From an archaeon (lineage in GTDB: Archaea; Nanobdellota; Nanobdellia; Woesearchaeales; GW2011-AR9), in NCBI GenBank assembly GCA_023259115.1, contig JAHFQW010000016.1, forward strand, positions 1 to 34,568: a DNA stretch of 34,568 nt, given 5' to 3'. Both the position numbers and the translations under genes were made by a program. Of the stretch, positions 24,161-27,903 are shown piece by piece. Each line of letters starts with the position of its first letter. Position 1 is the stretch's first letter. A model generated the notes under the pieces. The model saw nothing but the letters and a program-made list of their open reading frames with translations. It was not told the DNA's origin and ran no database searches.

Positions 24161-25372
24161 CTACCCAAAAAATCTTCCGGTTTCTTCATCGTTTTCGGTT
24201 AACTGGAGCTTTTCAACGGCTTGAGTGAAGTCATTATGGGTGACGTATTCTCGGTTATCCCTAATGGCAAAGAAGCCGGCTTCAGTACAGACGGCTTTGA
24301 GTTCGGCGCCGCTGAAGTTTTCTGTGAGAGCGACTATTTGGGACATATTCACGTTTTGGAGATTCATCTTACGGGTATGTACTTTGAAGACTTCGCCACG
24401 GCCTTCTTCATTGGGTAATCCCACTTCAATTAAACGATCAAGTCGCCCAGGACGGATGATGGCGGGATCTAGAATGTCAATACGGTTGGTTGCGCCAATG
24501 ATTTTGACGTCATCGAGGGGTTTGAACCCATCAAGTTCAGCAAGAAGCTGCATGAATGTGCGATTGACTTCACGTTCACCAGAGGTGCCTAAATCAACAC
24601 GTATGGCAGCAAGAGCATCAATTTCATCGATAAAAACTATCGCTGGGGCTTTGGAACGAGCGAGGGCGAAGATTTCTTTGACGAGTTTTGCGCCTTCTCC
24701 GATAAATTTTTGGACTAACTCAGAACCAACAACTTGGATAAATGTGGCGTTTGTGCTATGAGCGACGGCTTTAGCAAGAAGAGTTTTTCCAGTGCCAGGG
24801 GGGCCGTATAAGAGCACACCTTTAGGGGGTTCGATACCCACTTTTGCAAATAATTTTGGTTTTTTAAGGGGTAATTCAATGACTTCTTTGACTTCTTGCA
24901 CTTCCTGTTTTAAGCCACCGATTTCTTTCCAACTTTCTTGTGGTTTTTCAAGAATGATGAATTTTTCGACTTCCATGTTGTTATTAACGGTTAATTTGTC
25001 AACAATATTGAGAGATTTTTGGTCCACAAGTACCGCATCGCCACTGTGGATATCTTTGAGGTCTTTGGCAACGTAGCTGTAGAATTTATTGCCATTGGGT
25101 AACTTGATGACAGATTTATTCTGGTCAATACTGATGACATCAGCAACGAGTAATGAGGGCCGTTTGAGAGCGGCGAGTTCATTGTTGGCATTGTTGAACA
25201 TTTCACGCAGCATGAGGTTTTCTTCTTCGAGGCGAATGACATTTGTGCCTAACATTTTGTTTTCTTCCTCTAATTTTTCTACAGAGGCGTTTGGTAGCTT
25301 ATCTTGTCCTAGCGTTTGTTCAAGATGGATGCTCTCAGAGTAGACTACTTTGGGATTGTCTTGTTTTTCCAT
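24161..25372 (-). CDS. pan: Proteasome-activating nucleotidase (PAN)
   Basis: AAA+ unfoldase that feeds proteins to the 20S proteasome; no proteasome subunit is encoded here. From ATG 25372 it has 403 residues: an N-terminal coiled coil (about 31-72), an OB domain (about 75-130), Walker A GPPGTGKT (190-197), Walker B FIDEID (247-252), the second region of homology GATNRIDILDPAIIRPGRLDR, and a C-terminal helical lid. An upstream ATG at 25387 adds five residues, but the TATA box TTTAAATA (25395-25402) is only 8 nt from it and about 26 nt from 25372, favouring the shorter protein. The chain ends GRFFG, so the usual HbYX tail has Phe in place of Tyr. Confidence 0.93.
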   Translation of the reverse strand: MEKQDNPKVVYSESIHLEQTLGQDKLPNASVEKLEEENKMLGTNVIRLEEENLMLREMFNNANNELAALKRPSLLVADVISIDQNKSVIKLPNGNKFYSYVAKDLKDIHSGDAVLVDQKSLNIVDKLTVNNNMEVEKFIILEKPQESWKEIGGLKQEVQEVKEVIELPLKKPKLFAKVGIEPPKGVLLYGPPGTGKTLLAKAVAHSTNATFIQVVGSELVQKFIGEGAKLVKEIFALARSKAPAIVFIDEIDALAAIRVDLGTSGEREVNRTFMQLLAELDGFKPLDDVKIIGATNRIDILDPAIIRPGRLDRLIEVGLPNEEGRGEVFKVHTRKMNLQNVNMSQIVALTENFSGAELKAVCTEAGFFAIRDNREYVTHNDFTQAVEKLQLTENDEETGRFFG

Positions 25373-25494
25373 TTTTGAGAGAAACATGACTTTCTATTTA
25401 AACTTTATGAGATTTTTTCTTCACGACGATAAATTTTAGAAAGAGGAAGAAGAGAAATTTTCTGACGAAAAAGAGGATGTGAAAAAAAGAAATA

Positions 25495-25502
25495 TTTAAA
25501 TA
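25495..25502 (+). promoter_or_regulatory. TATA box of the nine-codon gene
   Basis: TTTAAATA, with A-rich sequence upstream, predicts initiation near 25524 and a leader of about 22 nt containing a Shine-Dalgarno sequence. Confidence 0.5.
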
Positions 25503-25546
25503 GGCAAACAACTTTCTTACTTTTAGAAAAACGAGGTGAATATTTC

Positions 25547-25576
25547 ATGGCTAAAAAAGCTAAAAAGAAGAAGTAA
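25547..25576 (+). CDS. Nine-codon lysine-rich ORF (MAKKAKKKK)
   Basis: ATG GCT then lysine and alanine codons and TAA: nine residues, six of them lysine. Everything expected of an expressed gene is present: a TATA box at 25495-25502, a strong GAGGTGA ribosome-binding site at 25533-25539 with 7-nt spacing, and a long T-rich tract after the stop. Most genes here are leaderless, so the strong site stands out. It could encode a micropeptide, be a leader or attenuator peptide, or be the remnant of a larger lysine-rich (histone-tail-like) protein. I do not know a family for it. Confidence 0.5.
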   Translation: MAKKAKKKK

Positions 25577-25640
25577 TTTTTTAATTTATCATTGATTTTT
25601 TTCTTTTTTTTTTGTTTATTTTTTTATTTTTTATCGTTTA
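25575..25640 (+). terminator. Extended oligo-T terminator after the nine-codon ORF
   Basis: About 65 nt almost entirely T, with runs of 6, 7, 10, 7 and 6 T's, immediately after the TAA. Archaeal polymerases terminate on such tracts without a hairpin. This is the longest T-rich stretch in the window. Confidence 0.65.
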
Positions 25641-25685
25641 GCTTTTTTTTTGTTTGAGGTTTAGCAAGAGGAAAGTTTAGCGATT

Positions 25686-25792: not shown

Positions 25793-27763
25793 TTAGGAAA
25801 ATAGAGTCATAATGGAGTTTAAGATCATTTTTATTCTGTCCCCAAAAGTGAGGGCTACTCCAGTTATATGAATTTCTTTGGTGGAGGTATAGGTTTTACC
25901 GCTATCTTGCCAGGTTACTAAAATGGTAAATGCATTATCGCGGGTGAGAGGAAGATTTTCGAGGTTGACGGTGAGCTGCTCGGGTTTTTCTAGTGTGGAG
26001 AGTTCCCATTTTTGTTCAAAACGTTGGCTGTGAATGGTTACTTGGAGATTTTTGGGAACGCTAAATGATTTTTTGTTAAGGGTGAGAGTGAGAGGAATAT
26101 TCTCTCCATAATTGATAGAAGAAGGATATTGAGGGATAATCTCAAGATTGGGATCGTCGGTGACTAGATAGGTTAGGGCATTTTTTTGTTCTACCATATC
26201 GTTTTCGGCACTGAGAATGATTTTTTGCCAGCCGGCGGTTTCGCCGAGAATGGTGAGAGAGGTGGTCTTGGTCTGACCACTGGGGAGATCGATGATTTCA
26301 CAGACTTTATTGAGGCAGATGTTTATTTTTTGCAAGTTGAGGCTGCCACTATTTTTGATAGTGCATTGCACGGTGGCTTTTTGATTGAGAGGGAGTTCAT
26401 GAGGATAGTTGCAATCGAGAATGATTTTACGAGAGTAGGCTTTTTCTTCATTTTGAATGGTTAATTTTTCAATGTCGGTTTGCGAGAAGATTTCTTTGTT
26501 TTTTTGAGCACTGAATGTGTCAAGTGAGGTGACATTTTTCTCGGAGTAGATCATAGAAGGAAATTGGTAGATGTAGTTTTCGCTGAGCGTTGCGGGTATA
26601 TGAATGACCCAGTAGGTTTGACGCACTTCTTTGGGGGAGAGTAAGATGGTGCGGCGATTTCTTCCTTGAATTTCTACTTCAGAAGGAACGGCGAGCTGCA
26701 GCGTGGTTGCAGCATAGGAGTCGGCTTTGTTTTTAACAATTCCTTTAATTAGGTTATAACTGCCAAAGCCTATGTCTTTTTGCAGAATTTCTTGTTCCAA
26801 TTGGATTTCATCAGGAATGGGCGTGCCTTTTTTGAGGATGTTGATTTGAAAATCGAGAGGGTGGGCGTTTAATTTTACTTGATCGGCAAGCCATTCGTAT
26901 TTGGTAGCGGGTTCAGTGGCGTCAAAGCCTTCACGCAAAGTGATGTGAGTTACATCGACGTAGCCAAATTCACCAAAAGCGATATCGAATGGGACCCAAC
27001 CAATAGTTGGGAAATAGACTTCGGCCCAGCCATGAGGCTGCCAGTTTTCTTTGAAGAGATCAGATGTTGTATAACTAATACCTGAGACAAAGCGAGCGGG
27101 CATGCCTAATGAACGGGCCATGGCGACAAATAAAGAAGACATTTCATCACAGACACCCTCTTTGTTATCTAAGACCCAGCTGGCTTTTTGGGATGCTTGG
27201 GCGGTGAGGGAGTTTAAGTCGTATTTGACGTTACTTTCTACCCAACTGGCGAGCATGAAGGAGACTTTGAATAGATCGTCTTGGTTTTGGGCAAGTTCCC
27301 GGGCTTTTTTGATGATTTTGGGATTGTCAGAATCAATAGTGGGAGTGGGCAGAGTATATGATTCGTATCCTTTGATGTCTTCCGAAGAGAGGGGATAGGG
27401 TATTTTTTTATTGACTTTGAGTTTGATGTTATTTGTTTCTATGACAGAGGTGTAGCCAAATTTTTTGGTTTCGATTACGCCATCATTCCAGACGTAGGTG
27501 AGAGCGTTGTCTTTGAATGCACCTTTTTGCAGTTGGATTTCCAGAATACGCTGGCGGTAATCTTCTACGGGATAGAGCAAGAGTTTGACCTGGGCTTCTT
27601 TGAGTTTGGCGGCTTGGTCTTGAGGCACGAGGTCAAATGCACCTTTAATCTGCACTTGGGTTTTGAGTTCGTCGTAGCGGTATAAATTTTCACCTGAGAG
27701 AGCAAGAGTGAGGGAACTGGTTAGAAGTAGGAGAAGAAGGATGAAGAAGATGCTTTTTGGCAT
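25793..27763 (-). CDS. Secreted transglutaminase-like protein
   Basis: 656 residues from ATG 27763, which begins a clear signal peptide (MPKSIFFILLLLLLTSSL, cleavage near TLALSG). A prodomain-like segment is followed by a transglutaminase-like papain-fold core with its triad Cys205 (KEGVCDEMSSLF), His244 (QPHGWAEVYF) and Asp260 (WVPFDIAFG). The C-terminal 300 residues form Ig-like/CARDB-type beta domains. Such proteins act outside the cell as proteases or cross-linking enzymes. A hydrophobic tail (GDRIKMILNSIMTLF) may associate with the membrane. The longer frame back to 27871 is rejected because a TATA-like TTTATATT lies about 30 nt before 27763 and the signal peptide starts there. Confidence 0.85.
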   Translation of the reverse strand: MPKSIFFILLLLLLTSSLTLALSGENLYRYDELKTQVQIKGAFDLVPQDQAAKLKEAQVKLLLYPVEDYRQRILEIQLQKGAFKDNALTYVWNDGVIETKKFGYTSVIETNNIKLKVNKKIPYPLSSEDIKGYESYTLPTPTIDSDNPKIIKKARELAQNQDDLFKVSFMLASWVESNVKYDLNSLTAQASQKASWVLDNKEGVCDEMSSLFVAMARSLGMPARFVSGISYTTSDLFKENWQPHGWAEVYFPTIGWVPFDIAFGEFGYVDVTHITLREGFDATEPATKYEWLADQVKLNAHPLDFQINILKKGTPIPDEIQLEQEILQKDIGFGSYNLIKGIVKNKADSYAATTLQLAVPSEVEIQGRNRRTILLSPKEVRQTYWVIHIPATLSENYIYQFPSMIYSEKNVTSLDTFSAQKNKEIFSQTDIEKLTIQNEEKAYSRKIILDCNYPHELPLNQKATVQCTIKNSGSLNLQKINICLNKVCEIIDLPSGQTKTTSLTILGETAGWQKIILSAENDMVEQKNALTYLVTDDPNLEIIPQYPSSINYGENIPLTLTLNKKSFSVPKNLQVTIHSQRFEQKWELSTLEKPEQLTVNLENLPLTRDNAFTILVTWQDSGKTYTSTKEIHITGVALTFGDRIKMILNSIMTLFS

Positions 27764-27903
27764 ACAAGGTGGTGTTTTTTGAGGGAATATAAATGTTTGT
27801 GTGGTGAATCGAGGATGAGAGAGATTAGAATTTTCATTTTTAAAATGATGATTTATTTTGCACTCCCACAAACCTTATAAAATAGTATATTCTTTGGCGT
27901 GTG

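Follow-up and report, generated by a model that had tools for sequence, protein, structure and literature searches.

Lysine-rich, H1-like proteins with a variable number of repeats are known from bacteria, e.g., AlgP (PMC9239181) and the chlamydial Hc2 (PMC2848022). AlgP of Pseudomonas aeruginosa joins a helical N-terminal domain to about 195 disordered residues, its C-terminal domain and similar KPAA proteins are low-complexity K-A-P polycations that vary in repeat number, and KPAA peptides derived from it bind DNA in vitro (PMC9239181). Hc2 (HctB) is likewise a lysine-rich DNA-binding protein, the size of which (165–237 aa) depends on the number of repeats (PMC2848022). Among archaea, histones and Alba have been reported for Woesearchaeota and Pacearchaeota (PMC6136690), and within the word-searched text of that report "lysine-rich" describes only the eukaryotic H4 tail. 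As to the lower end of protein size, a global small-ORF catalogue has a minimum of 30 nt (PMC11364881), and in an archaeal small-proteome study the smallest annotated sORF measures 35 aa (PMC11456600).

The gene unit described here lies in the window, i.e., the whole stretch of 34,568 nucleotides that was analysed, which is part of genome G000 (Table 1). Its ORF, read directly as ATG-GCT-AAA-AAA-GCT-AAA-AAG-AAG-AAG-TAA, encodes nine residues, mostly lysine, and with its stop codon has exactly the size of the catalogue minimum. Its family shares with the AlgP domain the K-A-P low complexity, the positive charge and the variable repeat number, but where AlgP has a helical domain and a long disordered region, there is here a bare 9-residue tail with orthologs of 9–193 aa. 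Similarly, the length of Hc2 varies less than twofold within species, whereas here it varies more than twentyfold across genera, down to 9 residues. In the literature covered, mostly outside subscription journals, we found neither MAKKAKKKK nor any lysine-rich micropeptide reported for this group. We lean slightly towards reading the unit as a real protein-coding gene for a polycation that would act by its charge, a minimal H1-like tail on DNA or RNA.

Table 1 Features of the micropeptide gene unit and its neighbours in the window
Feature	Position	Strand	Remarks
BRE/TATA element gaaataTTTAAATAgg	25489–25504	+	direct read; core TTTAAATA at 25495–25502
Pyrimidine-rich element ACTTTCTTA	25511–25519	+	at same place in 20 of 22 orthologs
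Shine-Dalgarno GAGGTGA	25533–25539	+	direct read; 7 nt 5' of ATG
ORF MAKKAKKKK with stop	25547–25576	+	ATG at 25547; TAA at 25574–25576
T-rich tract (probable terminator)	25577–25655	+	directly after TAA; T-count rank in window
PAN, proteasome-activating AAA ATPase (presumed)	24161–25387	-	divergent neighbour; ORF and family-wide matches
Putative transglutaminase-like protein	25793–27871	-	convergent neighbour; name from initial annotation

The initial annotation had singled out a TATA box, a strong Shine-Dalgarno (SD) site, the nine-codon frame and a very long T tract, all of which are borne out by direct reading and by the rank of the T tract. The 60 nt 3' of the stop contain 46 T, a count that is reached or exceeded by 0.055% of the 60-mers on the plus strand of the window and by none on its minus strand, and the tract is a probable archaeal intrinsic terminator. 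The ACTTTCTTA element likely lies near the transcription start. SD-led ORFs of 6–15 codons with at least 50% K/R occur once in the window versus in 1 of 300 dinucleotide shuffles. An SD-like site precedes 3 of 30 other ORFs in the window (ATG starts only, at least 100 aa, start sites without curation), which would fit a translation that is mostly leaderless or SD-free and, as far as the rarity of SDs goes, the earlier picture of a section rich in leaderless mRNAs. The divergent neighbour we take from its sequence to be PAN, in agreement with that annotation. Its closest match among named PAN loci belongs to a Candidatus Woesearchaeota archaeon (57% identity), which makes a DPANN archaeon of this type the likely source. 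A DNA search of the genome itself retrieved a second site (G000:C53; 89% identity over 57 bases) that encodes the identical nine-residue peptide with one synonymous base difference, sits behind a TATA-like box and SD, and is located downstream of, and beside, a frame whose end presumably belongs to GAPDH.

Of the 49 family genomes, 43 yielded a PAN ortholog; six, in which all AAA matches were more distant, were left out. Upstream of PAN, and in divergent orientation to it, 22 of these 43 carry an SD-led ORF in which K/R make up at least 40%; it lies within 1 kb in 18 cases and at 1.6 to 5.1 kb in four. An arrangement of this kind was what the initial annotation had suggested looking for beside pan in relatives; behind the same promoter, a micropeptide stands in five genomes (9 aa in the window, 11, 12, 12, and 14 aa). 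The other 17 orthologs, from sister genera, are H1-tail-like proteins rich in K/R, A, P, and V (27, 31, 31, 32, 42, 63, 69, 71, at least 80, 89, 90, 118, 119, 146, 159, 171, and 193 aa; the ORF of at least 80 aa, in G044, is interrupted by the contig end), and length at one locus, varying through repeats, ranges from 9 to 193 aa. A TATA-like 8-mer is found 40–47 nt 5' of the SD in all 22 orthologs, and a pyrimidine element of the CTTTC, CTTTT, CTTCT or TTTC type stands between TATA and SD in 20. As this promoter is common to long and short forms, whatever the ORF length, they are most simply one gene. No such ORF was detected within the examined flank at the remaining 21 PAN loci, several PAN flanks being short (206–725 bases); G001, of the same genus as G000, is without one at the PAN side and carries MAAKKKAKKKK elsewhere in its genome. 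In G046 both a micro form and a 171-aa form are present. Over the 22 rows of the PAN tree, at least three changes are needed to explain the short state, and a topology that unites all short forms in one clade is marginally rejected (p-AU 0.041). Four long forms had no matches in Pfam and four none in NCBIfam, curated H1/HC2 profiles included, and their likeness to H1 is therefore one of composition; the nine-residue peptide itself is too short for a profile scan. The longest forms (L031, L033, L035, L036, and L173) finish in a repeated AGKKAAATRKRKTAVRK-like unit that is distinct from the K-A-P-V repeats, and three of them (L031, L033, and L035) were scanned in Pfam and NCBIfam without a match.

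Beyond this locus, a first order-level pattern had matches in 71 of 287 genomes (backward control, 1 of 287), and a stricter one gave 70 matches in 60 of the 371 genomes of the class (backward control, 0). Closed in-frame ORFs of 7–15 residues of the MA(A)KKK..KKKR type account for 37 of these 70 matches and come from 32 genomes in 15 families, 13 of the 32 belonging to other orders of the same class. The other 33 matches, which lie out of frame and reflect either chance or the beginnings of longer genes, were excluded from the counts, and the in-frame excess over one third is significant (p 6e-4). Typical peptides are MAKKKAAKKKKR, MAAKKKAKKRR, MAKKKKAKKK, and MAKKKKK, and two copies each are present in G000, G107, G320, G378, and G443. 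Among the 426 residues of the 37 micropeptides there are 258 K, 95 A, 37 M, and 24 R, with AAA and AAG codons alternating at 129:129, and both the micropeptides and the long forms (selected at 40% K/R or more) have a K/A(/P)-rich, low-complexity composition. A charge-inverted decoy with GAR glutamate codons in place of the AAR lysine codons matched in 1 of 371 genomes, out of frame, a contrast that would be overstated if the genomes are A-rich; on the basis of this decoy and the shuffles (1 of 300), a chance origin was rejected. Since the SD and the MA..K content are built into the search patterns, their frequency and the universality of the SD are circular, and only the T tract, the TATA box, the frame, the synonymous excess and the decoy are independent of them. 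The 31 genomes that were reached via other loci gave two out-of-frame matches and no in-frame micropeptide; one of them is from Woesearchaeota, and with a different SD usage and base composition elsewhere this is a weak test outside the class.

The flanks were compared for 42 micro-ORF entries from 42 sources (the G170 locus, L249, was left out and L267 gave two entries). A T tract (15 or more T in 20) follows 33 of the 42 micro-ORFs versus 24 of 212 neighbouring control genes (Fisher 4e-18), a TATA-like box precedes 32 of 42 versus 53 of 199 control genes (Fisher 3e-9), and of 199 control genes in the vicinity of related loci, 27 have an SD-like site. Differences in length between micro-ORFs are whole codons. 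Substitutions were counted in equal-length pairs only, a restriction that biases towards similar copies, and the members of a pair share a genome, a conserved locus or a genus; five such pairs (synonymous/nonsynonymous: window-L233 1/0, L240-L241 1/0, L257-L258 3/0, L255-L256 1/0, and L253-L255 3/0) sum to nine synonymous and no nonsynonymous changes. The pair L242-L243 (3/2) brings the total to 12 and 2, and the pair L244-L268, ungapped and probably misaligned, has 4 synonymous and 11 nonsynonymous changes. Given a neutral synonymous share of 0.18–0.28, p is under 1e-5 without the latter pair (12 of 14) and under 0.002 with it (16 of 29). As most differences between related copies are synonymous, the peptide is probably translated and under selection; the unit combines its own promoter, ribosome site and terminator with conservation at the protein level, as expected of an independent small protein gene.

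Other small K-rich proteins were seen in these genomes. One family of 28–49 aa starts with MAKK and ends with CEFC (L129, L130, L131, L133, L137, L147, and L157), i.e., a lysine tail combined with a CxxC at the C-terminus that may bind zinc. At L240, MAKKKKAKKK is closely followed in tandem by another micro-ORF, MAKKKSKKSAKKCSCC, which has a separate GAGGTG site, and L143 carries MAKKKAVKKAVKKPVKKKSCCGCC; such Cys-ended K-rich micropeptides may form a related set. At L267 (G363), two basic micropeptides, MAARRAKKRSK and MAAKKKTKSKRKK, lie near each other, each with a TATA-like box and an SD.

Among the three options named in the initial annotation, the best fit is a lysine-rich micropeptide that would bind nucleic acid, with frame, peptide and signals recurring throughout the class. 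That the unit encodes a leader peptide or attenuator for a downstream gene, as the short ORF adjoining a T tract could suggest, is scarcely credible. The next gene is convergent in the window, and among the 42 loci the downstream gene is convergent in 20, co-directional in 20 and absent in 2, and differs from family to family, loci being kept inside families (L242, L243, L244, and L268; L254-L256; L245 and L269; L262 and L266; L237 and L238). An attenuator with a fixed co-directional structural gene downstream is contradicted by this gene order and was discarded. A small RNA with an incidental ORF would likewise be short and have a promoter and a terminator of its own, but the class-wide recurrence of frame, peptide and signals, the synonymous excess among related copies, the whole-codon length differences, the alternation of AAA and AAG and the SD kept near the ATG make it very improbable; the lack of any Rfam match up to E 1 speaks neither for nor against it and led us to reject a known RNA family. 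Quite improbable, in turn, is a decaying remnant of a longer H1-like gene, even if longer forms are found in 17 of the 22 orthologs and the changes on the PAN tree, where one micro clade is marginally rejected, fit repeated shortening. According to the initial annotation, a longer protein at this spot in relatives would mean a truncation here; such proteins do exist, but a truncated remnant does not follow, because five orthologs, from different lineages, are just as small and forms of 7–15 aa are spread over 15 families. The identical peptide from two copies in G000, the co-existence of both forms in G046 and the intact expression signals also count against decay. Simple truncation was rejected on the basis of the short PAN-side orthologs, the 15-family recurrence, the G046 pair and the PAN-tree analysis.

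The main rival, although an unlikely one, is a ribosome-bound micro-protein that would lodge in rRNA and replace eL41 in reduced ribosomes. eL41 is among the smallest conserved proteins, K/R-rich and 25 residues long with an Arg/Trp-rich pattern, and the product described here is tiny and K/R-rich too, with signals for strong expression. It is, however, shorter, and it lacks the Trp/Arg pattern of eL41. eL41 (PF05162) scores over the cut-off in none of the 49 family genomes but also in none of the 14 control genomes, so that its absence proves little, and an extension to as many as 193 residues at one locus is not what a packed ribosomal protein would show. Improbable as well is a polycation for some other polyanion (polyphosphate, RNA condensates or the cell envelope) and not for chromatin: the H1-like AlgP associates with polyphosphate granules (PMC9239181), but there is no pointer to such a role in the present analysis.

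For the charge-based polycation on DNA or RNA, we postulate that MAKKAKKKK would be the shortest allele of a gene that is plastic in length, the long H1-tail-like forms of which are encoded behind the same promoter in sister genera. The peptide would be produced in quantity and act by charge alone, without need of a fold, which is the simplest mode of action because orthologs vary more than twentyfold in length while composition and promoter are kept. Such a polycation would bind and screen the phosphate backbone of DNA, or RNA. An HMf-type histone is encoded in G000 and in 37 other family genomes of the 49, and the peptide would thus act beside it, as a free-standing linker-histone tail, or on RNA. 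The histone match in G000 (G000:C8:74546-74719) lies inside a 193-codon open frame, and this histone may carry a long extension. Nucleic-acid binding, abundance and disorder, as well as chromatin as the target, are what we infer for the peptide, and nine residues may have too low an affinity for DNA to organise it.

Whether this ranks among the smallest known conserved protein genes we regard as an even call, i.e., a class-wide set of archaeal polycations of 7–15 residues, all provided with a promoter, SD and terminator of their own, with orthologs that would reach 193 residues as only charge is selected. It would in effect be an encoded counter-ion for chromatin or ribosomes, and possibly a minimal or starting form of H1-like tails. 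As nine-codon genes are ignored by gene finders, a possibly abundant product would be invisible in a large class of uncultured archaea. If true, the natural range of lengths from 9 to 193 residues behind a single promoter would allow one to ask how much of the work of an H1-like tail is due to charge alone, and the gene would mark a lower size limit for recognising a conserved free-standing protein gene from sequence.
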